This document shows, piece by piece, positions 3,327-43,857 of a stretch of DNA of 43,857 bases. The stretch is from a virus: positions 1 through 43,857 of IMG/VR virus record IMGVR_UViG_3300020125_000519. One strand, given 5' to 3'. Within the stretch, counting starts at the first letter, position 1; the number at the start of each line of letters is the position of its first letter. A program made the position numbers and the translations under genes. The notes beneath the pieces were generated by a model that had not been told where the DNA came from, did not search any database, and was given only the letters and a program-made list of their open reading frames with translations.

Positions 3327-3335
3327 TCTCTCTCC

Positions 3336-5128: not shown

Positions 5129-5129
5129 T

Positions 5130-8314: not shown

Positions 8315-8315
8315 T

Positions 8316-9999: not shown

Positions 10000-10024
10000 T
10001 GTCTCCTCCTCCGTCTACAAAAAA

Positions 10025-10480
10025 CTATTGGATCGATTTACCGCTATTGCCGAAGTTCATCATGTACACGGCCACCGATTGCTCGGTGTCGCCTTCGGTG
10101 CTGGTCTTTGCCTCGACTTGTTTTTTAAACACGCCGCCCGTGCCCTGGTAAACGACCGTCGACATATTGCCGGCGCCGTCACCAACGCGCTTCGAGAACG
10201 AACACGTCAGCAGGATAAATCCCGAGAAGTCGTTCTTCATTTCTTGGAGGCGTGAGTTCAGATATTTGTCGTCGGCGCTGCCAAGCAACACCCGCACTTC
10301 AACCTCAACGAGACGACCGGTCTCATTGAACGCATAGATGGTGTTTCCGTTCTTGGAGGCTTTGACCGCTGCGATGTCGTTGGGGAATGTGAGCTTGACC
10401 GCATCCTGGTCTGCGAGGTCGTTTAAGACCCTGCTGTCGATTTGAATTGTGTCCGCACCTGTTAAAGAAACCGCTGGCAT
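10025..10480 (-). CDS. Tail tube protein, DUF3277-like
   Basis: A 151-residue protein with a strong AGGAGGA site, directly after the sheath gene. It has the appearance of the DUF3277 tube family: an N-terminal VSLTGADTIQIDSRVLNDLADQDAVKLTFPND, the strand KNGNTIYAFNETGRLVEVEVRVLLGSADD, and a late FKKQVEAKTSTEGDTEQSVAVYMMNFG. Tube proteins stack as hexamers inside the sheath. Order sheath, tube, chaperone, tape measure is complete here. Confidence 0.85.
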   Translation of the reverse strand: MPAVSLTGADTIQIDSRVLNDLADQDAVKLTFPNDIAAVKASKNGNTIYAFNETGRLVEVEVRVLLGSADDKYLNSRLQEMKNDFSGFILLTCSFSKRVGDGAGNMSTVVYQGTGGVFKKQVEAKTSTEGDTEQSVAVYMMNFGNSGKSIQ

Positions 10481-10492
10481 AATTTATTCCTC

Positions 10493-11635
10493 CTAGAGAT
10501 TGACGTTCACGATCACGTTTGATTTTTGGATCGCGCCCTGTGCCTTGACTGCTATTTGAACGAGAGGAGCCACGCGTGCTTCTCGGTCCGCTTGAGATTG
10601 TTGCGATATTGGCTTGGAGTAAACGTAATACCCGATGCCAGCGACGGATCGAATGAGCGACGCCGGGTCACCGAACACGAGTGAAGATGTCCAGAGTCCA
10701 GCACCGATGAATCCGTTCGATACAAATTGATCGCAAACCTTTCGGTACACGTTTTTGAGTCCTTCCATTCCAGGTTCCGTCTGTGGAATCTTGGTGCTGG
10801 TGCTGCGCAGGTAATTGAAGCCGGCAACCTGCAGAGCGAATTTGAGAGCCAGCTCGTTGTAAATTTCGTCGTAGAACGTATTGGCTCCGCTCGTGAAAAG
10901 CGAAGGCACGCCAGCGATGTTCACGTAGGTGTCGACGCCAGCCGTGACGGCCGCATTGAGCTGGGTCTGGTCGATCGTTGGATCCGGTTCGATGGTGGCC
11001 AGCACTTTCAAGTGCATGGTCTGAGTTGTGTTCGATCCCGAGAAGTCCGTCGAGAGTGCGCGACCCGCGTAGGCCGCTGCCATGGCCTGGGTGTCCAGGG
11101 GAACGCTGTCGTTGTAATAGAGACCGCGCGTGTGCGTCTTGCCCGTCGTGCGCAGGAGATCCAAGAGGCCACCAGGCGCATAGGACGATTGCAGGGACGA
11201 CGCATAGAAGAAAAGTTTGTCGAGCGTTTGGATGTACGTGGTCAACGTGGCGAATGTCGTTCCGTCGATTTCTTCGTCGACGATGACGCCGAAATAATAA
11301 ACCAAGTTGATGGTTCGCACAATGCACGCTTCGATTGTTTCAAGGCTCGGCGTTTGCAGGCGCGGGATGATCGTCAGGTAACCGCCTGTCGACAACGGAT
11401 TCGGTTGCTGCGCAAAAAAGGCCGCAGCGATGGCGAACGCGTTTGATCCGCTTCCGAAGTCGGTGGCAACGTCTGTCGAGTTCGTGTAAATCCTGAACGC
11501 TTCGTTCTCATCCCAATCGAGTGGTACCTCTTGGGAGATAAGCGCGCAGGTGTTGATGTTGGGCAAACCAAGATTGGCCGGTGTCCCGATGATCGTAATG
11601 TTGATTACGTTTGTTAGATCGAGTTGATTAGACAT
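10493..11635 (-). CDS. Contractile tail sheath protein, DUF3383-like
   Basis: A protein of about 380 residues. I place the start at 11635 because it has a GGAGGA site and overlaps the previous stop by eight bases; an upstream in-frame start at 11668 lacks a site. The sequence begins MSNQLDLTNVINITI, continues with ALISQEVPLDWDENEAFRIYTNSTDVATDFGSGSNAFAIAAAFFAQ and ends with a beta strand (KSNVIVNVNL), all typical of DUF3383 sheath-like proteins. It is the main evidence that the tail contracts. Neighbours are neck terminator and tail tube. Confidence 0.87.
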   Translation of the reverse strand: MSNQLDLTNVINITIIGTPANLGLPNINTCALISQEVPLDWDENEAFRIYTNSTDVATDFGSGSNAFAIAAAFFAQQPNPLSTGGYLTIIPRLQTPSLETIEACIVRTINLVYYFGVIVDEEIDGTTFATLTTYIQTLDKLFFYASSLQSSYAPGGLLDLLRTTGKTHTRGLYYNDSVPLDTQAMAAAYAGRALSTDFSGSNTTQTMHLKVLATIEPDPTIDQTQLNAAVTAGVDTYVNIAGVPSLFTSGANTFYDEIYNELALKFALQVAGFNYLRSTSTKIPQTEPGMEGLKNVYRKVCDQFVSNGFIGAGLWTSSLVFGDPASLIRSVAGIGYYVYSKPISQQSQADREARVAPLVQIAVKAQGAIQKSNVIVNVNL

Positions 11636-12131
11636 TAACGTGTTCCTCCACATTTCGGAATTGATCAAAGTAAGTGGGGAACCTTTCTATTATCGAAAGG
11701 GACGTTGCCGCCACTGTGATCGTGAATCGATTTAAAATCTTCGTCTCTTCCAAACTCGCGGTGTTCACAAAATCACCTGGGATGCGACCGAGCTGAAAAT
11801 TATATTTTTCCTGTTGCTGTTCGCAGTACACCGACGCAATGCACGCGATCACTTCTTCCTTCCGTAAACGCGCCGACGAATCGAAACTCATTATGTCAAT
11901 TTGGATAAGCTCATGCATCGTTGTTGAGATCGTTTCGATGTTCGTGTCTGAGTCAAATGTGCTGACGTTGCCGATGGCCTTGCCGCTGACGACGGAGAGC
12001 GCAATGTACAGATCGGCCACGGGTGGAATTTCAAACCCCGAGTACGCAAGCATGATTTGGTCGTCGCGGAGCTTCATCTGATTTTTCAGAATGTCTCCGA
12101 GTACCTTGATCACCTCACGCTGTTCACTCAT
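11628..12131 (-). CDS. Neck/tail terminator protein
   Basis: A 167-residue protein similar in layout to phage neck terminators (LIC_12616-like/gp12-like): an N-terminal helix (REVIKVLGDILKNQ), then paired strands QIMLAYSGFEIPPVADLYIALSVV and TTMHELIQIDIMSFDSSARLRKEEVIACI, with a final beta region. Such proteins cap the tube at the neck. The start overlaps the preceding gene by eight bases (ATGAGTGA). Confidence 0.7.
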   Translation of the reverse strand: MSEQREVIKVLGDILKNQMKLRDDQIMLAYSGFEIPPVADLYIALSVVSGKAIGNVSTFDSDTNIETISTTMHELIQIDIMSFDSSARLRKEEVIACIASVYCEQQQEKYNFQLGRIPGDFVNTASLEETKILNRFTITVAATSLSIIERFPTYFDQFRNVEEHVNV

Positions 12132-12465
12132 TGGGCACTCCCTGCGTCAGTTCGTATTCGTAATAGCCAGCGCCATTCCAGTCGGACTTGCGCATGACGC
12201 GGTACGTCTTCTCGTCAGCATCCATGAGGATCGCGTTCAATTCAAGAGGCTGCGTTGTCCAGAGGTTGTACCATTTCCATTGTCGGTCGCCTTCTGGCTT
12301 CACCAAAAGTTTTGTGGGCGGTATCGGTTCCAGCACGCCCTGAAAGCTCGTATCCAGCACCTTGTCCTCTTCCACCTCGAAATCGACGATGGCCTTGTTC
12401 ACTACGCGAAATGTGACAGCGGTTCCCCAATCCCACATGGCCTCGGCTACCGATGGGAAGCTCAC
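12124..12465 (-). CDS. Head-tail joining (head closure/collar-like) protein
   Basis: A 113-residue beta-rich protein. It starts with GTG in a GTGA overlap with the previous stop. The sequence contains QGVLEPIPPTKLLVKPEGDRQWKWYNLWTTQPLELN and a YRVMRKSDWNGAGYYEYEL end, features common in small collar or stopper proteins coded between connector and sheath. No family-specific motif is visible, so the call rests mostly on position. Confidence 0.55.
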   Translation of the reverse strand: MSFPSVAEAMWDWGTAVTFRVVNKAIVDFEVEEDKVLDTSFQGVLEPIPPTKLLVKPEGDRQWKWYNLWTTQPLELNAILMDADEKTYRVMRKSDWNGAGYYEYELTQGVPNE

Positions 12466-12992
12466 GACGCCGTCGCCTTGGTGACGCGGTAATCGATCGA
12501 ACGCCGCAAGGCACCGGTATCAATCAAAGGAGAGTCCGAACCCTTGCGACGAATGGTAGAGGGTCGGTCCGCCTTCCACGTTCCGAAGCCACGTGTGGAA
12601 AACGCTCGAGTGATGGCGGCCACGCACGCAATTCCGATCTTGAGAAGCACAGGTCTCAAATTTTTACTTTTGACGATCTCAACATCCACATCCGCGGCCT
12701 TCACGTCTTTTACAATGCGCTCTGCTTCGTGGTGAATCGGTGCGCGAAGGAAAGAACGCATTGGAATGTTCTTGGAGTGGGATCCAAATTCGTGGATGGC
12801 ACCAAGCTCAGCGTTGCTGAGATAATTTCCTCCAGCGTGTAAAGTTTTAGACCGAGACGTTTTAGATGAATAGGTGCGCATTGCCTTACGCCCCATGATG
12901 CCCACCTGCACGACGTTCTTGTCGGAGAAGGCTTTCACGAAGTCGTTCAGACCTTTGAAATTGGAATTGATGGAGAGCTTTTTACTGGACAA
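12462..12992 (-). CDS. Tail completion/virion morphogenesis protein (gp10-like)
   Basis: A 176-residue basic protein that starts at TTG with a GGGGAGG site eight bases upstream. The motif IHEFGSHSKNIPMRSFLRAP and the end SPLIDTGALRRSIDYRV are diagnostic of the HK97 gp10/virion morphogenesis type of head-tail joining protein. It lies between the DUF4054 connector and the collar-like protein. It overlaps the preceding gene by eleven bases. Confidence 0.83.
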   Translation of the reverse strand: MSSKKLSINSNFKGLNDFVKAFSDKNVVQVGIMGRKAMRTYSSKTSRSKTLHAGGNYLSNAELGAIHEFGSHSKNIPMRSFLRAPIHHEAERIVKDVKAADVDVEIVKSKNLRPVLLKIGIACVAAITRAFSTRGFGTWKADRPSTIRRKGSDSPLIDTGALRRSIDYRVTKATAS

Positions 12993-13458
12993 AGCTGGCC
13001 GCCTCCCCTGTATCCGTGAGTCCTGGGAGGAGAACCATATTGCCCACCAGGCGGGGTGCGGCCATTTGGAGATAGCGTTGTCCGTAGTCGGTGCGCATGA
13101 ATTGGTTCAGCACAGGGCTTTCGACGACGGATTGGGGGATGGCGTAATTGACGGAAACCTGGCCAACGGACTTAGACGATTGGATGCCACCGCCCTTGTT
13201 GTTTATCCCCTGGCCGGTCGGCTTCGATTGCAAGCCGCCGGCCATCTGGATATTCAAAACCAGGCAATGAGCGCTCACCAATAGGAAGGCGAGTTTCGTC
13301 TCATCATCGCTTGACCACAAGTTTCCGTTGAACAGGGAGTTGCCCTGTACCATCGCTCGAGTTATGTCAACGTCACGAACGGTACTGAGACCCGTACCGT
13401 AGATGAAATCCCTGTCAAACTCCGATTTAAAATCGGCAACGTTGGCAGGGAAAGTCAT
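12982..13458 (-). CDS. Head-tail connector, DUF4054-like
   Basis: A 158-residue protein with the pattern of DUF4054 connectors: a start MTFPANVADFKSEFDRDF, the helical core with DDETKLAFLLVSAHCLVLNI, a Gly-rich loop, then VGQVSVNYAIP and a C-terminal SPVLNQFMRTDYGQRYLQMAAPR helix with a late AAP(R) turn. It probably forms the adaptor ring under the portal. The start follows the preceding stop as TAAATG. Confidence 0.83.
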   Translation of the reverse strand: MTFPANVADFKSEFDRDFIYGTGLSTVRDVDITRAMVQGNSLFNGNLWSSDDETKLAFLLVSAHCLVLNIQMAGGLQSKPTGQGINNKGGGIQSSKSVGQVSVNYAIPQSVVESPVLNQFMRTDYGQRYLQMAAPRLVGNMVLLPGLTDTGEAASFVQ

Positions 13459-13773
13459 TTATTTGTGGCCTTTGCTACCGCCCTTTCCAGCGTCCTTGTC
13501 GGATTCGGCAAGTTCTTTTTTAGCGGCGGCGAGTTCTTCCTTCAAAGCTTTGTTCTCGGCTTTGAGGTCATTGAGCTGTTGGCTGGCCTTTGGAGCCACG
13601 GCTTTCAGGTCAACGATGTCGAAGTAATCCATGAGCTGTTTGGCTTCGGATTCCGGCACTTCGACGGATTGCTTCGGGTGCAATTTTCCCACAGATGTGT
13701 CGTAGGAACGCTGCCCTTTGTTGAATACGGCGACGAGTTTCTCGTCCTTTTTGTCAGACGCTTTATCGGTCAT
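13459..13773 (-). CDS. Small coiled-coil protein after the capsid gene
   Basis: A 104-residue charged protein with a GGAGGAG site. The N-terminal half has beta character (KLVAVFNKGQRSYDTSVGKLHPKQSVEVPESEAKQLMDYF), like small proteins that often follow phage capsid genes. Residues about 65 to 90 form a coiled coil of Lys, Glu, Ala and Leu, and the end is Gly/Lys-rich. Function unknown; a head-associated role is likely from position. Confidence 0.65.
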   Translation of the reverse strand: MTDKASDKKDEKLVAVFNKGQRSYDTSVGKLHPKQSVEVPESEAKQLMDYFDIVDLKAVAPKASQQLNDLKAENKALKEELAAAKKELAESDKDAGKGGSKGHK

Positions 13774-13800
13774 GAGATCTCCTCCGGTGTTTTTTTAAAG

Positions 13801-14865
13801 TTAGCTGTGGTCGAAATACAGGACTTCGGCGGGACGATATGCAATCGCGCCCGTGAATTGTCCAGCTCCCACACCCTGGAATTGGAAGTTGTTCGCGGTA
13901 CCAGCCGGCGTCAACACGAAGTCAACGGGCAAGTCCATTTTGATGGTGTCGGGATCGTTGCGGTACAAGCAGTAACGATATTTTCCAACAGAGCTGACGT
14001 AGCCAGCGTTCTGCGCAGCGTCACCATAGGCCAACCCATAAATCTTGAAGTTCGGGTTCTGGGTGGCTTTCTTGAAGGCGTCGAGCAAGTAGTCGATTTG
14101 GCTGACCACAGGGAAACCTGACGCAATCGGTGTCACCATTCCCAGCCAGTCACTCATCGGGATTTCAAAGGTGTCGGGCAACACGGTGTTGTTCGAGTTC
14201 GCAAAGTAAGCGGCCAAGATGGTCGAAACCAAGGTGGCGAATGCGGATGCGGACAACGAGCTGATGTTGGCGGTGATGACGGAGGTGTTCGAGTTCACCT
14301 GCGGGTTCGTGAGCAACCCCGGCATGTTGGTCAGGTCAGGAGCGAATCCCAAGAAGCTGACTTTCTGGATACCCAAGTCCCATTGTTTCTTGAGGGTTTC
14401 CATTTTGCTGGACACCACGTCCCAATTGCTGGCGGCGAGCGCTTTCTGCACTTCGGGGATGGTGTACTGATAGCCCTTCGCCCAGGTGGCGATCTTCGCC
14501 GAGACTGGCGCGGTGGCCACATCAACCGTCGAAATCTGCGACGGGCCGGAGGCGGTGTTGATTACGCCGGTTTCAAACGGACCGGAGAGTTCAAACACTC
14601 GGTTCGTTTTGATGTCTTCCATCCAGGCTCCGGTACCAGGAACCACGGGCACGTAATCCGCGAACGGTACTTCATAAAACTTCTGCTTCAAGACCTGCGC
14701 ACGGATCTGCGTGGTCGTTTGGATTGTGTATTGGTAACCAAGTGAGGTCGTGTCCACGTCTCCATTGGAGTTCACCAATTGCATTCCCATCGACGGATTC
14801 CAGGGAATGTTGTTGTTGCGGAGTTCGACTCCGCGCTGAAGTGTTTTTGATTTCATGGTATTCAT
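13801..14865 (-). CDS. Major capsid protein, DUF2184-like
   Basis: A protein of about 354 residues with the features of the DUF2184 capsid family (HK97 fold): YQYTIQTTTQIRAQVLKQKFYEVPFADYVPV near the N-terminus, then TWAKGYQYTIPEVQKALAASN, a DLGIQKVSFLG segment, and a C-terminal IAYRPAEVLYFDHS. It is preceded by decoration protein and protease-scaffold, as expected. Two starts are possible: 14865 has AAGGAG only two bases upstream, while 14856 has it at eleven bases. Confidence 0.9.
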   Translation of the reverse strand: MNTMKSKTLQRGVELRNNNIPWNPSMGMQLVNSNGDVDTTSLGYQYTIQTTTQIRAQVLKQKFYEVPFADYVPVVPGTGAWMEDIKTNRVFELSGPFETGVINTASGPSQISTVDVATAPVSAKIATWAKGYQYTIPEVQKALAASNWDVVSSKMETLKKQWDLGIQKVSFLGFAPDLTNMPGLLTNPQVNSNTSVITANISSLSASAFATLVSTILAAYFANSNNTVLPDTFEIPMSDWLGMVTPIASGFPVVSQIDYLLDAFKKATQNPNFKIYGLAYGDAAQNAGYVSSVGKYRYCLYRNDPDTIKMDLPVDFVLTPAGTANNFQFQGVGAGQFTGAIAYRPAEVLYFDHS

Positions 14866-14879
14866 TTCTCCTTTAGAGG

Positions 14880-15335
14880 TTAGGCGACGATCGGCGAGGT
14901 GATGATGACGCGCATCAAATTGCCGGTTGTACCTGGATCCAAAGCGATGCCCTTCTGGGCGTTGGCCGATTTGGTTATGACTTGATCGCTGCCGTTGTCT
15001 TCAACAGCGACACCTGGGGCAACCGTCGCGCCGGCAACAAGCCACAGAACCGGACCACCAAGGAATGCCACTTCGCAGAAATCGCCAGCATCAAAGCTGG
15101 ATTTTTTCACATCGAACACGATGCAACCGAGTCCGGTGTCGCCGACAGCGGCCGCCACGAATTGGGGAACGGGGCCGGTGTTGGCTGAGTCGAGTTTGAC
15201 GAAATCGCCGGGGTTAAGAGACGTGGCTTGGTTCGTGCTGATCTGTCCGGTGATGACACCGCTCTTTTGAATCTGCAGATCCGACTGACCGCGAACGGCT
15301 ACTTGCTGAAACTGATTTAGATTAAGATTTGCCAT
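14880..15335 (-). CDS. Capsid decoration/structural cement protein
   Basis: A 151-residue beta-rich protein directly before the capsid gene. It has the pattern of phage cement proteins: FQQVAVRGQSDLQIQKSGVITGQI, SLNPGDFVKLDSANTGPVPQFVAAAV, CIVFDVKKSSFDAGDFCEVAFLGGPVLWLVAGATV. Such proteins bind the outside of the capsid and stabilise it. The start has a GAGGA site. Confidence 0.75.
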   Translation of the reverse strand: MANLNLNQFQQVAVRGQSDLQIQKSGVITGQISTNQATSLNPGDFVKLDSANTGPVPQFVAAAVGDTGLGCIVFDVKKSSFDAGDFCEVAFLGGPVLWLVAGATVAPGVAVEDNGSDQVITKSANAQKGIALDPGTTGNLMRVIITSPIVA

Positions 15336-15364
15336 TTTGTTTTCCTCGCTTTTAGGATCCGCGG

Positions 15365-16414
15365 TTAGCGGGTTGTCCCGTATTTTTGACGTCCAGCTTC
15401 GACACGCTCGCGCTGGGATGTAACTTTAATCTCTTGTGGTTCCCCACGGAGTTCCGCGGCCTTTTTGAGGTCGTTGAAATGTTTGCTGCCTTTGGAATTT
15501 TCCATCTCGTCTTTCTCTTTTTTCTTTTTCTCTTCCTCGGCATTTTTGAGGTCTTCGGCTTCTTTGTCCTTTTTCTTTTTTTCTTCGTCCTCCGCGTTTT
15601 TCATGTCCTCGGCCTTTTTCTTTTTCTCTTCCTCTTCCTTATCGTTCTCGGCCTTCTCTTTTTTCTTTTTCTCTTCGTCCTCGTCGTCTGCGTTCTTGAT
15701 GGACTCGCGGTACGAATTCTTAAGCTCTGAAAGTTTGATTTCTTTCCCATCGATTTCGATGGTCGTGTCATCACCAATGGTGGCGACGCTCTTGGCGTTG
15801 TGCGCTTCTACCATGGCCTTGATGGAAACGGCTTTGCCGTCAACGTCCACCAACGTGTCGATGCCAACATTCTTCAATTCGGTTTTGTTCTTTTCCCAAA
15901 ACTTTAATTTCATATCAGATCCTCCCTTTGAGTTGAGCACCACGATCCGAGCGTCCTCATACCGAGGGTTGGCAACGATTGCGAGATGCGTGTAGCTTCC
16001 GCTAAGTACTTCTTGAGAATACGGCACGTTGTTGTACGAACCATCCTCAGTCTTGAAATTGCTGACATCGTAAGCGCACGAGACTGAATAGGCGTTGCTG
16101 CGACAATTAAATTGGGTTGCTTCGTCCCACACAATGAATTCGCACCAGTACCATCCATCTGCGGGATCGTACCATACTCTGGTGACGATGCCATCGGCGT
16201 CCGCGTTTTCATAAATGTCCGGCGCCACATCTTTGTGAACCACGTTGATGACGGGCTTGCCCACAAACGTTTGCGCCATTGCGTCCAGCGCCTCTTTGCG
16301 AACGAGAACCGTTCCGTAGTCGTCATAGGCGACCAAACCAGGGACGATAAATTTACATTTGAATTGCGCTGGCCAGCTTGAGACTGCGTTTCGACGTTCC
16401 ATAACGTCAGGCAT
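15365..16414 (-). CDS. DUF2213 prohead protease fused to scaffold region
   Basis: A 349-residue protein in two parts. Residues 1 to about 170 fit the DUF2213 phage head protease type, with FIVPGLVAYDDYGTVLVRKEAL, GKPVINVVHKDV and, near the end, SGSYTHLAIVANPRYEDARIVVL. Residues about 235 to 310 are almost only Lys and Glu with Asp, Ala and Met, an alpha-helical scaffold-like rod of repeating EEKKKK blocks. The C-terminus, RVEAGRQKYGTTR, resembles that of the protein encoded just upstream. The rod gives a striking pyrimidine bias at 15480..15700. The start overlaps the previous stop as TAATG. Confidence 0.85.
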   Translation of the reverse strand: MPDVMERRNAVSSWPAQFKCKFIVPGLVAYDDYGTVLVRKEALDAMAQTFVGKPVINVVHKDVAPDIYENADADGIVTRVWYDPADGWYWCEFIVWDEATQFNCRSNAYSVSCAYDVSNFKTEDGSYNNVPYSQEVLSGSYTHLAIVANPRYEDARIVVLNSKGGSDMKLKFWEKNKTELKNVGIDTLVDVDGKAVSIKAMVEAHNAKSVATIGDDTTIEIDGKEIKLSELKNSYRESIKNADDEDEEKKKKEKAENDKEEEEKKKKAEDMKNAEDEEKKKKDKEAEDLKNAEEEKKKKEKDEMENSKGSKHFNDLKKAAELRGEPQEIKVTSQRERVEAGRQKYGTTR

Positions 16415-16944
16415 TAGCGTGTTCGATTACCGTACCGCCGGCGCCCTTCGCCGACACTATTTAAAATGGAGTTTTTCATTCCGGGGGCTGGGAAGGCGGC
16501 GAGTTCAGTCATGTTGCACATCTTGCCGCAGTTTTCTGTTTTGGTGATTCCGCAGGTTTTGCATTTGCCGTCCACCCATTCGTGGAGGAGTTTCGATTGT
16601 CCTTCGTCGTTTTCTACTTGGTCATTTTTGGCGCCACAAGTTAAGCATCGGCGGGTTTTAAAATCGTGTTCGGTTTGAGTTCCGCAATGTCCGCACTCAG
16701 CGTAATAGTTTGTGGCGTTGGTCATCTCGCGTTCGCCAGCTGCGATCTCTCCACAAACGGGGCAAGCGAGAAACGGTCCGGTGTGGTGCTTTGCATGGTA
16801 GGTCATCAATTCTTCGGGAGTGGGTGGGCGGTCGTTGGAAATAGCTGTGCCGTATTTGTTCCGGCCTTCGTTTAGAAGTGTTAGCTGGTTCTCTCGCATA
16901 CGTGTGAAGAGAGAATAACACCCAAAACATGCGTTGTGCAACAA
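16414..16944 (-). CDS. Zinc-ribbon protein inside the head operon
   Basis: A protein of about 161 to 176 residues; the frame opens with TTG at 16944 and a first ATG lies at 16899, neither with a good ribosome site. It contains several CxxC pairs (CPVC, CGHC, CLTC, CKTC, plus CGKMC), which predict two zinc ribbons. The N-terminal part has LLNEGRNKYGTAIS and the C-terminus has GEGRRRYGNRTR, two related copies of a motif that also ends the protease-scaffold protein. It is not a known head protein. A structural scaffold partner or a nucleic-acid binding role is possible. Confidence 0.65.
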   Translation of the reverse strand: MLHNACFGCYSLFTRMRENQLTLLNEGRNKYGTAISNDRPPTPEELMTYHAKHHTGPFLACPVCGEIAAGEREMTNATNYYAECGHCGTQTEHDFKTRRCLTCGAKNDQVENDEGQSKLLHEWVDGKCKTCGITKTENCGKMCNMTELAAFPAPGMKNSILNSVGEGRRRYGNRTR

Positions 16945-16954
16945 AAATCTTTTT

Positions 16955-17947
16955 TTAGGTTGTTGTGTGAACGGGTTCTAAGATGGGTTCATCGACGCAA
17001 CGGCAGTTAAAATCCTGTCCTGGGTTGGCGCGCCGGCCTGTTCCCATATCGACCACGGGAGGGTCGTCGTAATAAAAAATCTTCCCATCCAAGATCCGGT
17101 GGTTGTCCAATCGCGCCTTTCCTTTGACCCACGGCGCCGGACGCACGCGCTCGTCGTGTGAGGTGTGCCAGCGGTACCGTGTGACGCCGCCTTCTTTGAA
17201 ACGCGCTTCCCGATATTTGGAAACGAACAGCGACGTCTCTTGGCGTGCGAGAAATTTTGCTTTGCTCTGCGACACCGAGTAACGATTCTGAATCCCTGCG
17301 ATGAGATTGTCGAACCGATATCCTTCCAAGGCATTGTCCTCGACCTTGCCACGCAGCTCCGTGATTTCTTCCTCGCACCATTTCTGGATCCACAATTCCA
17401 TGTTGTTGGAGTAATCGTCGGCGAGCGTGTCTTTGGTGGTGGGCGAGAGTTGCGCCGGTATTTCGATCTTGCGCGCAACGTCATGGAAGTCGGCCACAAC
17501 ACGATCCACCAAAGGTTTGGCTCTGACCTTACTTCGTTGCAGGATGGTGTTTAGGTTTTGCTGAACGTCGTCGAGCTTGCGCGTGATGGCCTTGTTCGTG
17601 GCCTGCGCTTTCATGGTGTATCCGGCGGCCGCCGATTTCACGTCTGGTGGAACCTTCGCCGGCGAGAGCTTAAACGCTTTCGATCGCTCATCGAACGTGG
17701 CACCCAGATCACGCAGAGCCTTGCTCGTTCGCGCACGAAACTTTCCCACAAACATTCCGTCGTGGTATTGGATATCGCCACGGCGCAATGCCTCCACCAA
17801 GTCGTCCTTGGCGGCGTTGAAGATTTGTTTGTTGGACATGGCGGGATGCGTCTCGCGGATAACGTCTGCGATCGGCTCGAACAACACCTGGCGAAATATG
17901 GCCATCACCTGGCGCTCCATCTCCTCGTAGTGAGCGAGGTTGAGCAT
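16955..17947 (-). CDS. Head morphogenesis protein, Mu F-like
   Basis: A 330-residue protein of the Mu gpF/SPP1 gp7 type. The helical N-terminal two thirds lead to the diagnostic C-terminal domain: YSVSQSKAKFLARQETSLFVSKYREARFKEGG, RYRWHTSHDERVRP, LDGKIFYYDDPPVV and GQDFNCRCVDEPI. Such minor capsid proteins enter the head with the portal and may be ejected with DNA. It follows the small protein after the portal gene, with a TAA-four base-ATG junction. Confidence 0.9.
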   Translation of the reverse strand: MLNLAHYEEMERQVMAIFRQVLFEPIADVIRETHPAMSNKQIFNAAKDDLVEALRRGDIQYHDGMFVGKFRARTSKALRDLGATFDERSKAFKLSPAKVPPDVKSAAAGYTMKAQATNKAITRKLDDVQQNLNTILQRSKVRAKPLVDRVVADFHDVARKIEIPAQLSPTTKDTLADDYSNNMELWIQKWCEEEITELRGKVEDNALEGYRFDNLIAGIQNRYSVSQSKAKFLARQETSLFVSKYREARFKEGGVTRYRWHTSHDERVRPAPWVKGKARLDNHRILDGKIFYYDDPPVVDMGTGRRANPGQDFNCRCVDEPILEPVHTTT

Positions 17948-17951
17948 GGGT

Positions 17952-18233
17952 TTATCTGGGCGGTCGGAAACCGCGATGCCCGTTGTTGGCGCCGATGATG
18001 CGCTGGATGATTCCCTGCGCCGCCTTTTGGGCGTTGGCGTTCACGTGAGTGTCCACCATCTTCTTGGCCACCTCAAGCATCCCGTAGCAAATGGTCTTGT
18101 TGCCCATCGGCCCTTCAAATTCCGTTTCGCCGGTCTGCATGTTCCAGCGAATCTTTATTTCGATAACGGGCGACGGTGCCTGTTGTTCTTGAGATTGTTC
18201 TTTAGCTTGTGCTTGATCGTTGTCTTCACTCAT
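17952..18233 (-). CDS. Small protein after the portal gene
   Basis: A 93-residue protein starting at 18233 in an eight-base overlap with the portal stop. Its ribosome site is GGAGGAGACC, the element shared with nine mainly early genes; this is the only late gene that has it. The N-terminal third is Gln/Glu-rich and probably disordered; the rest (VIEIKIRWNMQTGETEFEGP) is a beta-alpha domain. Function unknown. A longer frame up to 18368 is open but is arginine-rich portal shadow. Confidence 0.68.
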   Translation of the reverse strand: MSEDNDQAQAKEQSQEQQAPSPVIEIKIRWNMQTGETEFEGPMGNKTICYGMLEVAKKMVDTHVNANAQKAAQGIIQRIIGANNGHRGFRPPR

Positions 18234-19716
18234 TGTCGGTCTCCTCCGGTTTTTTCTCTTTGTCTTTTTTCTCGGGCGCGTTTGGGTCGCCTTCGCCACG
18301 TCCCCCGTCGCCTTCAAATCCGTGCGCTGCTGGTTGCGGGTGATCGTCCAACAATCCCTTGGCTGCATCTGTTGCGATCGGGATCAGTTCTTCTTTCTGC
18401 ATGACGTCACCGTACTCCTTGGAGCTGATGAGTCCGCGGTCGTAGTCCGCGAGGTAACGATTCTGTTTCGACGTCTTAACCGTTTCTTCATCCACCGACG
18501 ACATCACGCGGAGCGGGTTGAATCCAAATTTAAACTTCGGCTCGAAACCAAACTTGGCGGCCATCTTGAGTTTAAGAATTTTGCGAAGCACGGGGCGCAT
18601 GGGCTGGCGCACCTCCGACTCCACCATGGCGTTATAGTTTTCGATGTCGTCTTCGCCCGAGTTAAAACCGGCCGATGAAATTCCGAAGAGCTTGGTCAAC
18701 GGCATCCGCAACGCCGACGCAATACCGATTCGGTTTTCTTTCATCACCTCAGCCAAACCAGAGAACGCAATTTGTTTCTGGTCGTACTCGTCCTCAAGAT
18801 CGATGCCGATGGCGTTGTTGGAATTCTTGGCCTGGTTGATCAGCGCCATGCGCGTGAGCGCTTTCTCGGTCCCGCCTTGTGTGATGAGCTGGTTGTTGAA
18901 ACCTTTAAATTTGTAAATGTCCGTCTTCGCTTCGTTCAGGAGGTCGTACAAAACGTTTTTGCTTTTGATGTAGATGTTGAAGTCCTCGACCATGCGTTCG
19001 ATCTCGGACATACCCCAACCCTGCAATTGCCAGCGGATGATGTACGGCGCCGCTTTACCGCTCATGACCAACACACGGCTCTTGTGAAGTTTCTGACCGT
19101 AAAAATAAACGTACTCGCTGTTCTTGGCGGCCGCCCACAACCACGGCGTGAGTTGCGTCTGCAGGTCGTTCGGTTTCCAAACGCTCATCAGCTCCCAGCG
19201 ATTGGCTGCGTAAAATTCCACCTTCTTGATGGCGCCGAGATTGTCGTAGTCAAGCGGCGTCGATGGATCGGAGTCGGTGTTCACGATGAGAGCTGCGCCA
19301 CCGAACAAACGTTTCCACGTCGTGGCCTCGACCAACGATTCGAGGGTGCCGTCCTCTTCCATGTCGTCTTCCAGCTCCTCCACCTCATCGGTGGAAAGCT
19401 CGTCCGACGTGATCTCCAAACCACCACGCAGAGAATCCAACACCGGCATATCGATCGCCGTTTGGATCACGCCGTGGGTCTTGTACATATACATCAGGAT
19501 GTTCCAGTTCAGCGTGATCGGTGCGTAAATGTTGTTGTTGATGATCGGGTTAAACGAGGTGAGGTTCGACTGAGAAAAAACGGATGCGCCTTGAACCAGC
19601 GCGGAGAGAGAGTTTTGCAGGCTTGTGGACTCGGACGCTTTCAAACCGTTGAGCATGACCTTCAGCTTTTCGTTTTGGTTCTTGAGCGCGGCGATACGTT
19701 TGGTGGATGATTTCAT
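18226..19716 (-). CDS. Portal protein, DUF1073-like
   Basis: A 496-residue protein of the DUF1073 portal type: PITLNWNILMYMYKTHGVIQTAIDMPVLDSLRGGLEI near residue 80, the acidic loop DEVEELEDDMEEDG, WKRLFGGAALIVNTDSD, a long helical stem, and a C-terminal acidic tail. Portals form the dodecamer through which DNA is packed. I chose the start at 19716, next to the TerL stop (TAAAATG), over 19746, which has no ribosome site and lies inside terL. Confidence 0.88.
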   Translation of the reverse strand: MKSSTKRIAALKNQNEKLKVMLNGLKASESTSLQNSLSALVQGASVFSQSNLTSFNPIINNNIYAPITLNWNILMYMYKTHGVIQTAIDMPVLDSLRGGLEITSDELSTDEVEELEDDMEEDGTLESLVEATTWKRLFGGAALIVNTDSDPSTPLDYDNLGAIKKVEFYAANRWELMSVWKPNDLQTQLTPWLWAAAKNSEYVYFYGQKLHKSRVLVMSGKAAPYIIRWQLQGWGMSEIERMVEDFNIYIKSKNVLYDLLNEAKTDIYKFKGFNNQLITQGGTEKALTRMALINQAKNSNNAIGIDLEDEYDQKQIAFSGLAEVMKENRIGIASALRMPLTKLFGISSAGFNSGEDDIENYNAMVESEVRQPMRPVLRKILKLKMAAKFGFEPKFKFGFNPLRVMSSVDEETVKTSKQNRYLADYDRGLISSKEYGDVMQKEELIPIATDAAKGLLDDHPQPAAHGFEGDGGRGEGDPNAPEKKDKEKKPEETDNE

Positions 19717-19717
19717 T

Positions 19718-21202
19718 TTATACGAACCCCCAGATTCCAGTTTCATCGTCGAGTGTTAGGAACACGGCATCCCGCCCGTCATCGTGTTTTGGATAATTTC
19801 TGGTCAGTTGGTCGATCAATTTATCCTTGTCAGCCTGCTCGATATTTTTATTGAGATGCACTTTTCCATTCTCAAAGTACTTGGACTTGTTTATCAGATT
19901 AGTAATTTTATCAGTCACGTGGCTAATGCGGGTGACGGGAAGATTGGTGCGCCGGACAACGGTGCTGGCGTAATCGTCAAAGCCGGCGATCGCTTCAATG
20001 CGAACGTCCGTGAGAGGAAATTCTTTGGGTTGAGCTTTGTTGACACCGATCAATTGCTGCACGCGCTCCTCGAGGGATAATGGTTTCATCTCGATTGAAA
20101 AGATCCACCACTCCGTTCCTTCGCCGTCCTTCCAACCAGTTTTCACGACAACGCACGTGGCCGTGTCGTCTGCCTCTTGGTCTTTTCCAATCGAAGGATC
20201 GTTGCCGACTATTGTACCCAAGAGGATGCGTCCTGTCCCGCCTTTTATTTCTTTGATGAGTTCGATCGGATCAAACTCCCAATTTTCCAGGTACTTGCGT
20301 TTAATGACCGAGGAGGCGTCGTCACGGCGTTCGTTCTGCATTTCGCGTGAGAAGATAATCGAACCCATGTCGATCTTGTCGTCCATCAAACTCTCGAAGG
20401 TGTTCAGCTCCGGCCACAACACAATCTTTTTATCGAAGTCCTTGATTGCTTGGAAGGAGCGACACTTCCAACGTTTTTTTGTTTTGAGCTGTTCGAGCAA
20501 GTCCTCTTTGTTGATGGCGGTACCGATCAAATGGATCGAACACCGACGCGACTTGGCGCGCGCTGGATAAAGCGAACCCCACCACCACCTGTTTTTCTTT
20601 TCCGTTTTTTCTGGGTTCTCGATGTCCTCTTCGTCGTACAAGTCGTCGACCACAATATAGTCGGGGCGCACGCCGTTGTGGTTGATACCGCGGATGCTCT
20701 GGCCGGCACTGATGGCCGTGAAGATGACGCCGTTCTCAAGTACGAATTGCCCGTCCGTCCATTTTTCCTTTCCCACTTGGTCGCCATAGATTGCGCGGAT
20801 CACCTCGTTGTTTTCGATCTCGCTACGGATACCTGTGTTGATGGCGAGCGCCTTTTCTTTGGTGGCCTGCACGTTCAAATAGTGTTTGAAGGTGTCCGGC
20901 TCCTCGAGCGCTTGGAATATTTCGATCAAGAAACATTCGATCTGGGTCTTGGCGTGGTTACGTGGGGCTTCGGTGGCCGAGCGAGGCACACCACGGATGG
21001 AGATTAAATAGTCGTGCAGCTCATAACAGAACGGGAGATAAAACTTGTGGGGAAATACGACCCTGCCCCAGGCCAGAATGTTTTTTTGCTTCGCATATTC
21101 CTTTGCGCGAATGACCCTGAGCTGGATATCAAGCGCACTGATGTGCGCATGCTCGCGGTCAGTTATCGTCGTCTTTGGATTGCGATGGGCGGAGGTAAGC
21201 AT
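19718..21202 (-). CDS. terL: Terminase large subunit
   Basis: A 494-residue packaging motor and nuclease. The ATPase part has a variant Walker A, APRNHAKT (residues 79 to 86), in the place of the usual PRGHGKS, a Walker B VVDD with following acidic residues near 184 to 192, and a GTAIN coupling motif near 227. The nuclease part contains GNDPSIGKDQEADDTAT near 333 to 348 and DDGRDA near 475, consistent with the RNase H-like metal site. It overlaps terS by 44 bases. Confidence 0.93.
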   Translation of the reverse strand: MLTSAHRNPKTTITDREHAHISALDIQLRVIRAKEYAKQKNILAWGRVVFPHKFYLPFCYELHDYLISIRGVPRSATEAPRNHAKTQIECFLIEIFQALEEPDTFKHYLNVQATKEKALAINTGIRSEIENNEVIRAIYGDQVGKEKWTDGQFVLENGVIFTAISAGQSIRGINHNGVRPDYIVVDDLYDEEDIENPEKTEKKNRWWWGSLYPARAKSRRCSIHLIGTAINKEDLLEQLKTKKRWKCRSFQAIKDFDKKIVLWPELNTFESLMDDKIDMGSIIFSREMQNERRDDASSVIKRKYLENWEFDPIELIKEIKGGTGRILLGTIVGNDPSIGKDQEADDTATCVVVKTGWKDGEGTEWWIFSIEMKPLSLEERVQQLIGVNKAQPKEFPLTDVRIEAIAGFDDYASTVVRRTNLPVTRISHVTDKITNLINKSKYFENGKVHLNKNIEQADKDKLIDQLTRNYPKHDDGRDAVFLTLDDETGIWGFV

Positions 21203-23390: not shown

Positions 23391-23411
23391 GGTCTCCTCC
23401 ATTTTAAAAAG

Positions 23412-23483
23412 TAGCACGGGTGGGACTCGAACCCACGACCTTCCCGTTATGAGCGGGACGAGCTGCCGCTGCTCTACCGTGCG
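23412..23483 (-). tRNA. tRNA with CAU anticodon (Met or Ile2)
   Basis: The minus strand folds as a complete cloverleaf: acceptor CGCACGG with CCGTGC, D stem GAGC/GCTC, anticodon stem TCCCG/CGGGA with loop CTCATAA, five-base variable loop, T stem GTGGG/CCCAC with loop TTCGAGT. The anticodon is CAU. No CCA is encoded. The anticodon stem lacks the three G:C pairs of initiators, so it is an elongator Met tRNA or a lysidine-modified Ile tRNA; the first acceptor pair appears to be C-U. Confidence 0.9.
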
Positions 23484-24658: not shown

Positions 24659-25064
24659 AGGTCTCCTCCGTGCGTTTTCCAATGTTGCTTAAAATTTCCA
24701 CTGCTCTTTTACAGGTCTCGACGTCGAACATTCCGATGTGGCATTTCTTAACGTCGATGTTCAATTGCCTGGCCAGCCACGCATACCCGGCGCCACGTGC
24801 CCTGCGCTTTGAACAACCTTCTCGCGCAATCTTCATTCGCCAAAGCCGATCAAATTTCTGATGCACCTGCGATTTTGCTTTGCGCAATTCGCCGTTCGCC
24901 AATCGCCCCAACGGCCTCGTGGTGTTCGGATGGCATCCAACGTATGCGTCGCATTTCGGGTACTGCGAACACACCCATGCGGGACCGTAGCTGCGCCCGT
25001 GGTACACAACCGCCGAATCCGTCAGAACAACCTGGCCTCCACAATACGGACATGGCTCGTTCAC
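24624..25064 (-). CDS. Zinc-finger protein, DUF3268-like
   Basis: A 146-residue protein. GTG at 25064 overlaps the stop of the membrane micro-protein as GTGA. It matches the DUF3268 zinc-finger type closely: NEPCPYCGGQVVLTDSAVVYHGRSYG, WVCSQYPKCDAYVGCHPNTTRPLGRLANGELRKAKSQVHQKFDRLW, then GYAWLARQLNI and CHIGMFDVETCKRAVEI. The family is common in phages; its job is unknown but the fold suggests nucleic-acid binding. Confidence 0.85.
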   Translation of the reverse strand: MNEPCPYCGGQVVLTDSAVVYHGRSYGPAWVCSQYPKCDAYVGCHPNTTRPLGRLANGELRKAKSQVHQKFDRLWRMKIAREGCSKRRARGAGYAWLARQLNIDVKKCHIGMFDVETCKRAVEILSNIGKRTEETCESEAVHASTI

Positions 25065-26981: not shown

Positions 26982-27013
26982 GGTCTCCTCCTTGGAATGC
27001 GTCTCTTTCCTAC

Positions 27014-27043
27014 ACTATAAGGTTAGCCTGTGTGGTACCACAA
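27014..27043 (-). promoter_or_regulatory. Promoter with palindromic operator before small-gene operon
   Basis: In the 106-base gap after the helicase loader, the minus strand has TTGTGG, 18 bases, TATAGT, a fair sigma70-type promoter. A perfect 12-bp palindrome, TGTGGTACCACA (27031..27042), covers the -35 region and looks like an operator. Its core TGGTACCA occurs again before the recombination operon at 35496..35503. The transcript would begin near 27007 and feed the genes from 26981 downward. Confidence 0.6.
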
Positions 27044-27087
27044 AGCAAGTTTATCTGCATTCGTTTACAACCACATTCGAGGCGTGT

Positions 27088-28519: not shown

Positions 28520-28624
28520 TTAATTGGTCTCCTCCAAAAATGGGTCGCAGGCCGTTTCCTTCAGCGCGTACTTTTCGGATCGTCACCCTACTTTAGTCCA
28601 GGGATCCGTACTCCGGCCTTTGAC

Positions 28625-28720
28625 CTAAAACAAAAAAAATCCGACCCCTGATGGTTTATCGCTACGATAGACCGGGAATCGGATTTTTTGCCCCTTGCGA
28701 GGCGAAATCTGATTTGGCAT
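28625..28720 (-). CDS. Possible 31-residue leader peptide
   Basis: In the leader before the initiator gene, an ORF opens with ATG at 28720, about eleven bases after the predicted transcript start, and ends with TAG at 28625, just past the terminator T-run. It would read MPNQISPRKGQKIRF and onward. There is no convincing ribosome site. It covers both arms of the terminator, so translation would affect folding. I report it as a possibility only. Confidence 0.3.
   Translation of the reverse strand: MPNQISPRKGQKIRFPVYRSDKPSGVGFFLF
28632..28689 (-). terminator. Terminator in replication leader, likely bidirectional
   Basis: On the minus strand AAAAAATCCGA (28689..28679) pairs with TCGGATTTTTT, and the arm runs on to eight T. 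Short C-rich and G-rich stretches extend the stem. A T-run also exists on the plus strand, so it can work in both directions. The loop contains the 12-base segment 28660..28671 that is perfectly complementary to 28720..28731 upstream, so the terminator competes with another helix. Confidence 0.7.
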
Positions 28721-32120: not shown

Positions 32121-32150
32121 TGGTGGTCTCCTCCACTGCTTGATTTGTTT

Positions 32151-33219: not shown

Positions 33220-33482
33220 TTGGGGTCTCCTCCTGGTTGAGTTTCTTGAATTTCGACGTCGGTTATTTCCTGCACCTCTTTGGTGACGGTCTTGCTTTGG
33301 AGGGTGTAGGCCATCCGGCGCGCTTTGTAAAGTTCACAATTGGGGTTTTTCTTGAGGGTTTCCTTCATCTCTCGAATGGTGGTGGCGTATACGACGTGAT
33401 AGGTGGGCACGTAACCAGGCATGATGCCAGGGTCGGGACCGGCGTACACCGTGCAGACGAGCAGGTAAATGAACGGGTTCAC
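33216..33482 (-). CDS. Small hypothetical protein
   Basis: An 88-residue protein coupled to the nuclease gene by ATGA and overlapping the next gene. It opens with MNPFIYLLVCTVYAG, a short hydrophobic stretch that may be a strand of a soluble domain, then PTYHVVYATTIREMKETLKKNPNCELYKARRM. No family recognised. Confidence 0.65.
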   Translation of the reverse strand: MNPFIYLLVCTVYAGPDPGIMPGYVPTYHVVYATTIREMKETLKKNPNCELYKARRMAYTLQSKTVTKEVQEITDVEIQETQPGGDPK

Positions 33483-34480: not shown

Positions 34481-34500
34481 CGGTCTCCTCCGGTGATTTT

Positions 34501-35469
34501 TTATTTAGAAACGATGTCGACGATGGACTCGATATTTTTGTACTGCCCCTTCGTCGAATACTTCACCGTCACAAGGCTCTCCGATTTCCGTGCGTCCTCT
34601 AAACGCTTGCCTTCGTCGGATGTAAACGCCTTGCCCCACCATGATAGCTTTTCGTTTTTGTCAGTCATCACGTCGATGATGTTGGTTTCGCCATAGGTGC
34701 GCGGGCTCAACACCTTGATCGTGAACGTCAGCTCGGCGGTTTCTTTCACGCTCTTGTCGGCGGTGGCACCTGGATTCTTGGCGGCCTGACTGCCTTCGCT
34801 GGCACCGAAGCTCACGTACCGAATCTTGGAAATATCAAACCCCAGTTCCTTCAGCTTCGATACGGGAATACGGCGCAAACCCAACAGCTCGCGCACGGCC
34901 TGTTTTCGCAGGTCGCGGATGCACTCGCGCTGAATGTAATCCTCGCGGATGTCAGAGGGGTCTTTTTCTTTGCCCTTGTCCTTGGAGTAGAACGGGTTCA
35001 GCGTTGACGCGATCCCGAAGGCGTGAATGGTGGTGGTTTCGCCCTTGAACGTTTTCATGGAGAAGTCGCCCTCGCACCGATAATAATAGTGGCCAGGTTT
35101 TTTCTCGTGCCAGAATTTCTCTGGCGTCGTTCGGTTGGTTTCGTGGATGCCCACGTCCTTGGCAATGCGGTCGGCGCCGGCATTGGTGATGTTCGCCATG
35201 CGTTGATCCTCGCCTTTGGTTTCGCTGTCGTGGGAAACGAAGTCGCCTGGGTAGGCGCGTTTGATGATGAAGTTCTGGATCATGTTCAGCGCCTTCTCGC
35301 GCTTGTCCAGGTGTTCGGCGACGGACATGAGGAAATCTTTTTCCTCGATATCGGAGCGGATAATTCCACCCTCGACAATTTCTCCGTCGACAACGAGCGG
35401 TTGGTCTTGGTTCATATCTTCAGGCGGGTGCGGCTGATCTACTGCGGGTGTGGTCTTTGATTCTTCCAT
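34501..35469 (-). CDS. Recombination/ssDNA-binding protein candidate
   Basis: A 322-residue protein; the start at 35469 is fixed by the GGAGGAGACC element. The N-terminus is acidic. The middle has AYPGDFVSHDSETKGEDQRMANITNAGADRIAKDVGIHE and a YYYRCEGDFSMKTF segment. The C-terminal 100 residues (ELTFTIKVLSPRTYGETNIIDVMTDKNEKLSWWGKAF) look like an OB fold. As first gene of the operon and neighbour of a RecB-like nuclease it is best explained as a single-strand annealing or ssDNA-binding protein. I do not recognise a named recombinase family. Confidence 0.6.
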   Translation of the reverse strand: MEESKTTPAVDQPHPPEDMNQDQPLVVDGEIVEGGIIRSDIEEKDFLMSVAEHLDKREKALNMIQNFIIKRAYPGDFVSHDSETKGEDQRMANITNAGADRIAKDVGIHETNRTTPEKFWHEKKPGHYYYRCEGDFSMKTFKGETTTIHAFGIASTLNPFYSKDKGKEKDPSDIREDYIQRECIRDLRKQAVRELLGLRRIPVSKLKELGFDISKIRYVSFGASEGSQAAKNPGATADKSVKETAELTFTIKVLSPRTYGETNIIDVMTDKNEKLSWWGKAFTSDEGKRLEDARKSESLVTVKYSTKGQYKNIESIVDIVSK

Positions 35470-35489
35470 AGGGTCTCCTCCCAATCGAA

Positions 35490-35512
35490 TTTAAGTGGTA
35501 CCAACGTACCAA
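35490..35512 (-). promoter_or_regulatory. GGTAC repeat region before recombination operon
   Basis: Between the terminator and the first early gene the minus strand reads TTGGTACGTTGGTACCAC followed by TTAAATT. It holds the palindrome TGGTACCA (35496..35503) and a partial second copy. The same core is the centre of the operator at 27031..27042. TTAAAT could be a -10, but the -35 region is poor, so an activator may be needed. I infer an early promoter here because the transcript before it ends in a terminator. Confidence 0.45.
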
Positions 35513-35532
35513 AACGTTTCTGATGTTTCCAC

Positions 35533-35608
35533 AAAAAAATCGCCCCCTTCAAGCACGGTCGGAGGAGACCGAAGACGTGCTATCCAGGGGCTCGGAGCTT
35601 GCGCCCCT
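35533..35608 (-). terminator. Terminator with alternative hairpin and anti-RBS loop
   Basis: Minus strand: GCCCCT (35591..35586) can pair with AGGGGGC (35548..35542), followed by GA and seven T (35539..35533). Inside lies a second hairpin, CGGTC-TCCTCC-GACCG. A competing arm AGGGGC (35608..35603), overlapping the stop codon of the nuclease-like gene, can pair with the same GCCCCT. The inner hairpin contains GGTCTCCTCC, the exact complement of the ribosome-binding element of ten genes. The site separates late from early transcription. Confidence 0.6.
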
Positions 35609-35969
35609 AAATCGCGTGTACGGTTCCGACGGAAGAAAAGGTCGGCGCCTCGAATACCTCAAACTCTCTTTTGCCTTCGGTGCGTAACCAAATTTGAACG
35701 GTGTCGTGGAGAAAATTCCACGGGTGAACCATGAGCTGTTTTATTTTGTCGGACTTGTGGGCGCGCGTCGTCACCTGCACCCAGAGGTTTTTTTCATTGG
35801 GTTTTTTGCAAATCATGTCCGAACCGAAGACGTCGCAACCGACCATGATCATTTTGCCTTTCATGTACATTTGTTTCCGGTGTTGACGGAAGACAGACCA
35901 CCCTTTCGATTCCAGAATCTTTTTAACTTCCAGCTCGTAGGTGTTGCCTTTTTGTGATGTGTTTGCCAC
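35607..35969 (-). CDS. PD-(D/E)XK-like nuclease fold protein, atypical active site
   Basis: A 120-residue protein, GTG start three bases after GGAGGAGACC. The layout is that of small nucleases of the Holliday-junction-resolvase or VRR type: KGNTYELEVKKILESKGWSVFRQHR, then GCDVFGSDMICKK and LWVQVTTRAHK. Glu12/14 and Asp51 fit catalytic acids, but the (E/Q)xK strand reads QVT, lacking the usual lysine. It could bind DNA without cutting, or use a nearby Lys. It is the last gene before the late terminator. Confidence 0.6.
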   Translation of the reverse strand: MANTSQKGNTYELEVKKILESKGWSVFRQHRKQMYMKGKMIMVGCDVFGSDMICKKPNEKNLWVQVTTRAHKSDKIKQLMVHPWNFLHDTVQIWLRTEGKREFEVFEAPTFSSVGTVHAI

Positions 35970-35993
35970 GGTCTCCTCCGATGGGTTTGAATC

Positions 35994-43700: not shown

Positions 43701-43857
43701 AGTTGCCAGGACTGGTCACCGCGGAGATACCGCGCAGACGAGGCCGTCCCGCTGCCTAAGCGTGCTGTGCCTACCGTACCAGACGTCAGATTGTCCGCAT
43801 CGGTTTGATCTACGTTTTGCACCTGATCGAGGCCGACCTGATCTTTGGTCATACCCG
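40775..43857 (-). CDS. Large tail fibre with beta-helix domain, main part
   Basis: This is the main part of the fibre that begins at 740 beyond the junction. In order it contains: repeated modules with YPAT(G/N)TI and STDWNTFNNK-type phrases typical of trimeric phage fibre shafts; a central right-handed beta-helix resembling the pectate-lyase superfamily seen in tailspikes, starting near a VQDPPYNMNNID segment; and a C-terminal fibre domain with NFGDTATGLYR. A beta-helix could bind or cut host polysaccharide, but I see no diagnostic catalytic residues. The next gene downstream starts at 40760. An ATG at 43852 is internal; the real start lies at 740. Together with the signal peptide, the modular build resembles secreted fibre-like adhesins of bacteria. 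Confidence 0.85.
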   Translation of the reverse strand, partial: GMTKDQVGLDQVQNVDQTDADNLTSGTVGTARLGSGTASSARYLRGDQSWQLLNATAAGLGNVTNNAQVKVADYTQKSAILVGISTGVFTVMAAGNDGFILASDSTQSTGYRWVISPTAFSVYPATNTIIAPKGVLASTVTATVSLTTVILNVSGLTTATTIYANQGVFSGTLSASNLSGTNSGDVVIGSPANGLSVVGQTVSISTSDASHTGALTSTDWSRFNTATTATDIYPATGTIVASKGIQTTTMTATGLIQGTTIQMQNGFFSSTMSASNFSGTHSGSSSGTNTGDLTLGTTNGLSLSAQILSMGTASTSSTGSLTSTDWNTFNNKTSTSGATITNPTIVGGTASNFTITSGTVTVSSLTATAASMTSGVITSATIGTLTPTTINGTITDNSTTTLTGSVSGGTYTGTRTDNSTTTYSGGNFYTGRSTFTGIVSLSSVTFASATVTGQVTWPDGYTQKNHTFINVQDPPYNMNNIDASDNSTAWATMIATLQASSVPVTVLLPGGTMKFNSPITVPVGLISVFGQGTTLDFSALTAGTTCMTVTGFNGISYAGNPYLNVNKYLANFNILGPGAAGNVNGMIYVGYGSNIGPSHTKTYNIGIYLVNEGIVLSDHSYLNAFYGTEVFVSSVGWHQLNATDSGERVYLSGCAAFNSNKGIWQQSGIADFYVDGMSIDGISDAYIQLESGDFQGSKMHFEGNFSPDYPNARILYNPASATSSVYASITDSFFTLKSTRAVAAIELDHIAYFVFGNNHVTGTGLVSQPVIQTGSSFIGTVDMVQNIWTVSDAHLSILGTNTSYWRQDRGESLFTNRDLHVDGGATIFPSTITYVASKITGTATNSSTTTYNGQNIFGGSPSATVPFAFSNGSVSAPAFNFGDTATGLYRVTTNQVGVSLNGVLGAKFVSAGTSDDTGYQPLFLTSGNGGQAIFDVYTTTVSTSTKKISNVSGGGELMIVYGESGSDRFADLILATFASTSPSVIQTKTALGAPTARTYTSAGNGQISLSMASGTYTVHVIGLGAN
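43731..43857. repeat. Terminal direct repeat, right copy
   Basis: Exact copy of bases 1..127. Removing one copy gives a circle of about 43,730 bp, in which the fibre gene becomes a single uninterrupted frame. Confidence 0.95.

Follow-up and report, generated by a model that had tools for sequence, protein, structure and literature searches.

We found that a terminator hairpin on the minus strand of this phage (35533..35591) carries the exact complement of a ten-base ribosome element that stands in front of ten genes, and we propose with moderate confidence that it is an intrinsic terminator doubling as an antisense RNA with many targets. In the window (the whole 43,857-nucleotide stretch of viral DNA analysed here), GGAGGAGACC occurs in ten exact copies, all on the minus strand and each 0-6 nt upstream of an ATG or GTG, compared to 0.01 copies expected in all from dinucleotide shuffles. 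This count agrees with a preliminary description of the DNA, which had assigned a common 10-base ribosome site to ten minus-strand genes. The sole plus-strand copy of GGAGGAGACC lies at 35561-35570 and reads GGTCTCCTCC in the minus-strand transcript, and we confirm that this anti-element (35570..35561), already pointed out in that description, is the exact complement of all ten elements and the only one in the window.

The hairpin consists of a base stem (35591-35586 with 35547-35542), a middle stem (35581-35576 with 35557-35552), and an inner stem (35572-35569 with 35562-35559) that closes the hexaloop UCUCCU at 35568-35563, and it is followed by a U-tract at 35539-35533, which corresponds to the seven T noted earlier. 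The hairpin thus stands as first described except for its innermost part, which had been drawn as CGGTC-TCCTCC-GACCG; our predicted fold has an inner stem UCGG/CCGA around the loop UCUCCU, and the two are alternatives. Its GC-rich stem, its U-tract, and its place after an operon are those of an intrinsic (Rho-independent) terminator, and it is the strongest terminator-like structure on the minus strand (-26.8), followed by only one other credible candidate, at 28639 (-18.3). A small hairpin, GGGGC-GCAA-GCTCC, lies just upstream on the same strand (35594..35607) and begins at the stop codon. With this hairpin included, the predicted fold reaches -36.6 kcal/mol (z = -2.48), and an alternative AGGGGC/GCCCCU pairing vies with the base stem of the terminator. 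Rfam covariance models returned a single tRNA for the whole window and nothing up to E = 5 for 35300-35800, including C4 antisense RNA.

An exact 127-bp direct terminal repeat (1-127 = 43731-43857) indicates that the record is a complete myovirus genome that closes into a circle of 43,730 bp. All convincing genes among the window's open reading frames are on the minus strand, and a long fibre gene crosses the circular join. Genes for terminase, portal, capsid, sheath, baseplate, and fibre extend from 21 kb down to 1, and the same late run resumes at 43.7 kb with a fibre-size gene and an endolysin and continues down to 35.6 kb. Since the genome is circular, the late operon, with its terminase, head, tail, fibre, and endolysin genes, therefore finishes at the hairpin. 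The last gene before it (35607..35966, minus strand, 119 aa) gave no more than a sub-threshold match, to Pfam HicA_toxin. On the other side the hairpin adjoins the early operon, and the next gene after it opens a nuclease/recombination set; early and late are used here according to gene content, not expression. The second terminator is a near-palindromic hairpin at 28639-28690 with T runs on both strands, flanked by a methyltransferase gene and by the replication gene at 28519, which carries an element. The two minus-strand terminators define transcription units of 35469-28750 and 28519-around-to-35607, and because the second one splits the units in this way, six element genes share one transcript with the hairpin. 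A strict early/late split for the element genes is thus something that we infer, as some of them sit in the hairpin's own long transcript.

Nine of the ten elements are located in the early/replication region (23-36 kb), where 9/25 genes carry one versus 1/38 elsewhere (Fisher p = 0.0006). Proceeding along the minus strand, the first (35970..35979) precedes the gene starting near 35969 (the 35966 gene), and the second (35472..35481) precedes the first gene after the terminator (35469-34501). The next two stand before nuclease genes, namely a Cas4-type exonuclease (element 34482..34491; gene 34480-33479; phrog_1990, 7e-17) and a further exonuclease (element 33224..33233; gene 33219-32521; phrog_10477, 6.5e-22). 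They are followed by the element with the longest stem, GUGG/CCAC (32125..32134; gene 32120-31746), and by one directly after terminator 28639 (28526..28535) that serves a replication initiation-like gene (28519-27809; phrog_9474). The remaining copies are at 26982..26991 (gene 26981-26796), at 24660..24669 (start codon GTG at 24658), at 23391..23400 just after the tRNA-Met (ATG 23390, gene to 23193), and at 18238..18247 (ATG 18233, gene to 17952), the last being the sole copy in the structural module. The tRNA-Met (CAT; 23411-23483, minus strand), the only one in the window, lies about 11 bases ahead of the element that heads this small gene. Separately, the same palindrome, GTGGTACC/GGTACCAC, stands in the gaps that precede element genes 35469 and 26981 (35490-35515 and 27027-27045) and is possibly part of an operator or promoter.

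The bases flanking the element are complementary at 7/10 sites (C-G at three, U-A at three, and G-C at one; permutation p = 0.007, in a post hoc test done after seeing the data). As modelled, the element looks able to form a mini-hairpin of three to four pairs with the hexaloop AGGAGA. Alternatively, the ACC conserved at its 3' end may be due to a longer pairing with the 16S tail, in which GGAGG is followed, past a mismatch and a bulge, by GA and CC. On one such view the element would be a mere extended Shine-Dalgarno sequence pairing with 16S GGAUCACCUCC, and the hairpin would play no part in regulation, being a mimic of the 16S tail or a leftover inverted copy. A predicted duplex of -11.4 kcal/mol between element and 16S tail is consistent with this, and so is the nearest relative, the contig L085, in which three genes retain GGAGGAGA with different bases at the 3' end; at one of them, the site homologous to our tenth element (after the portal gene) reads GGAGGAGACA. 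However, the two suggestions together would leave both the exact ten-base complement and the parallel in K1 phages described below unexplained, and we find the combination scarcely credible.

The predicted energetics of pairing are in line with an antisense role for the hairpin. The terminator loop UCUCCU is the exact complement of the predicted element loop AGGAGA, a match that, in these models, points to a kissing-loop start of pairing. After the opening of both RNAs, predicted net binding was favourable for all ten element genes, at -15.5 kcal/mol for Cas4, the best predicted target, -14.5 for the 18233 gene, -13.6 for the 35966 gene, and -4.3 to -10.3 for the other seven (-7.6 for gene 35469-34501). 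Among non-element genes, close variants of the element reached -7 to -9 kcal/mol, and the rest ranged from about -3 to clearly unfavourable, with mostly positive values. Opening the hairpin costs 7-9 kcal/mol, which we count against the antisense reading. At the Cas4 site the pairing extends to 16/17 bases, with one U.U mismatch at the AUG. The 13-base matches listed previously at this site (34492-34480) and at the 18233 gene (18248-18236) are correct, and by our estimate pairing beyond ten bases is not significant by itself with ten sites to choose among.

The anti-element could also act in cis, if RNAs extending past the terminator or initiated inside the hairpin paired it with the element 80 nt downstream, shutting only gene 35469. 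Such pairing is predicted at 96% when the RNA starts inside the hairpin, at 35580, but at 17% in the full leader, where the complete terminator hairpin can form, and at 0.3% with another 5' end. With no promoter known within the hairpin and the best pairing, that at the cas4 site, left unaccounted for, we regard cis control as improbable. A further alternative is that the plus-strand copy is simply the ribosome site of a small plus-strand gene (GTG 35577). Its spacing of 6 nt is the same as at 28535, and the frame stays open through 36 codons; on the other hand, it lies opposite the end of gene 35607 in a genome whose convincing genes are all on the minus strand, and its element would be locked in the hairpin. 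We therefore consider a plus-strand gene very improbable.

The complement might, finally, be accidental, the hairpin being an ordinary terminator whose GGTC/GACC arm and pyrimidine loop happen to match the element. The plus strand holds six copies of GGAGGAG, and by a simple count one of them being followed by ACC is not extreme (~0.09); moreover, terminator function accounts for everything but the loop, and the second terminator at 28639 lacks a complement of the element. Against this, when synonymous codons were permuted within each gene and gaps were shuffled, an exact complement arose on the transcribed strand in 1.75% of 2000 randomised genomes (0.0175) and in a gap in 0.05% (0.0005). Pure chance is thus unlikely. 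Against the antisense reading, the observation was picked after reading the whole window. Together with the phages discussed below, some of which support coincidence and some of which argue against it, these findings leave an ordinary terminator with a fortuitous match as a real, though not a probable, explanation.

A similar arrangement is found in the cluster K mycobacteriophages, which are unrelated to the window phage. Start-Associated Sequences (SAS; consensus GGGATAGGAGCCC) occupy 11-19 ribosome sites in the non-structural half of cluster K genomes, and K1 phages have one SAS copy on the opposite strand (PMC3203893). We found that in CrimD (L202:48836) and Anaya this copy lies at the tip of a long hairpin, in its ten-base apical loop; the hairpin stands in a noncoding gap of ~425 nt ahead of the last three genes. 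In Adephagia, too, the copy is in an apical loop, and the gap homologous to this one separates genes 92 and 93. An opposite-strand copy has a chance of ~0.004 of falling both in noncoding DNA (0.078) and in such a loop (0.0525), and this recurrence of the arrangement in phages unrelated to ours argues against coincidence. Across 11 phages, the K hairpin shows two-sided changes at 8/20 pairs, more than in any of 500 shuffles, a figure that kinship can inflate. In published Adephagia RNA-seq, late transcription appears to begin in the gap that holds the SAS-complement hairpin (PMC11373665). Most likely, then, the cluster K complement is also in an untranslated part of the late RNA, there the 5' leader.

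The SAS is unchanged in all cluster K phages searched, and the loop varies among them. It is CTCCTATCCC in CrimD, Anaya, Adephagia, LastHope, and Enkosi; with 8/10 pairs left, it is CTCCTTCCCC in Ekdilam and DarthP and CTCCCTTCCC in Cain and Shadow1; and it is unrelated in Keshu, SirPhilip, KiSi, Marshawn, and Chris, such that 5/14 phages keep the SAS and have lost the complementary loop. The hairpin loop is the best SAS-pairing site of the leader in 9/14 phages, and the pairing energy of the leader is better than that of shuffled leaders in 5/14 only, namely the CTCCTATCCC phages. We also observed that the late leader as a whole (L202:48600-49040 in CrimD, with homologs in L203-L214 and L216) is structured, largely unannotated, and common to cluster K, with a conserved TTTTAGACT box, a GCACAACTGTGC palindrome, a very strong GGCCCC hairpin, and the SAS-complement hairpin in that order; it had no convincing match in Rfam. 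The opposite-strand copy in ZoeJ was rejected as a comparable complement, as it is no more than the element that belongs to a gene running leftward.

A complement is absent from two further phages whose ribosome elements are repeated, namely Microbacterium phage AnnaSerena (cluster EF), with ten SAS, and Hydrogenobaculum phage 1, with seven copies of GGAGGTGGAGC. Since neither has one, element systems of this type can do without a complement, and the antisense reading is weakened by these two phages and by the five cluster K phages that lost the loop, all of which favour coincidence. The GGAGGTGGAGC copies are located on the minus strand at 11710-19115 (L084), at least six of the seven directly before an ATG, and possibly represent a further, undescribed repeated ribosome element.

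Scans for relatives with the 34501 protein, Cas4, and TerL, based on single proteins or alignments, and with a 17-base hairpin pattern found no close relative for the early region, and a search with the DNA methyltransferase gave unrelated phages only. Alignments of portal and TerL identified two true relatives (L085, ~64% identity; L086, ~60%), and alignment showed Bdellovibrio phage phi1422 to be another (~40% identity in the portal). The hairpin is not covered in any of the three; the L085 contig ends short of it. In relatives that lack the element, the terminator loops are ordinary, with CTCC in 2/50, and complementary loops were absent from their terminators save for one low-complexity case. 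The structural module (2421-19746) is syntenic with phi1422 over ~20 proteins at 27-51% identity, hinting at a Bdellovibrio-like host.

The nearest known mechanism is that of S. aureus RNAIII, whose C-rich hairpin loops pair with the Shine-Dalgarno regions of the rot, coa, and spa messengers (PMC2837412), with loop-loop contacts. Unlike the phage hairpin, RNAIII is a chromosomal quorum-sensing RNA, and its targets have no identical copied element. The window hairpin is, at the level of sequence, complementary to several ribosome sites, as is expected of a trans-acting antisense RNA. Among phages, C4 antisense RNA of P1/P7 also has short loops complementary to a ribosome site (PMC12197685), but it has one target operon and acts on antirepressor synthesis. 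Lambda OOP and aQ likewise exert antisense control over phage developmental genes, but are cis-encoded with one target each (PMC12197685). Our literature searches found no known late phage RNA of the kind proposed here.

The window element itself most resembles the SAS of cluster K (PMC3203893) and of Microbacterium cluster EF (PMC7302621). Both are present as at least ten near-identical copies a few bases from start codons, concentrated in non-structural genes, conserved beyond the Shine-Dalgarno sequence, and with complementary ends (GGG..CCC and GG..CC); the likeness extends to the opposite-strand K1 copy, which is placed in the loop of a late-leader hairpin. They differ in sequence (GGAGGAGACC rather than GGGATAGGAGCCC) and in length (10 versus 13). 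An extended SAS inverted repeat, found upstream of about half of SAS copies, is missing from the window, where the upstream regions of the element had no 7-mer common to more than two. The hairpin is also placed differently, at the 3' end of the late RNA in the window and in the 5' leader in cluster K, with no complement in EF.

The antisense reading is supported because an exact complement is rare by chance and this one sits in the main terminator at the end of the late operon, and because of the flank complementarity, the matching loops, the favourable net energies, the ordinary terminator loops of relatives that lack the element, and the cluster K parallel. Under this reading, transcription of the late operon would end at 35533 and leave an RNA 3' end with a CU-rich loop, and each target messenger would present GGAGGAGACC as a tiny stem-loop with the Shine-Dalgarno bases AGGAGA exposed. 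The loops UCUCCU and AGGAGA would kiss, and pairing would spread to 10-16 base pairs and block ribosome binding. As the late transcript accumulates, translation of the element-bearing, mostly replication genes would drop. The preliminary description had proposed that late readthrough releases a 3'-end RNA that shuts off early genes. The position at the end of the late operon, the 9/10 elements in the early region, the favourable pairing, and the cluster K parallel agree with such a shut-off, but readthrough is not required, as the RNA would be set free whenever the late transcript terminates in the ordinary way. That the 3'-end RNA would accumulate, act in trans, and set the timing is what we infer from this arrangement.

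We suggest, more tentatively, that unrelated phages may have arrived at one RNA timing system of two parts: a set of early genes would carry a short ribosome element, untranslated late RNA would carry a single hairpin with a complementary loop, and late transcription would silence the whole set. Early/late timing in phages is thought to be mainly transcriptional. If our suggestion is true, one late RNA hairpin silencing an element-marked regulon would be a simple post-transcriptional switch. Cluster K includes TM4, which is widely used in tuberculosis work. For these phages, the same switch would give a function to the Start-Associated Sequences, unexplained since 2011, and a role that is concrete and quickly testable, as RNA-seq data for Adephagia exist.
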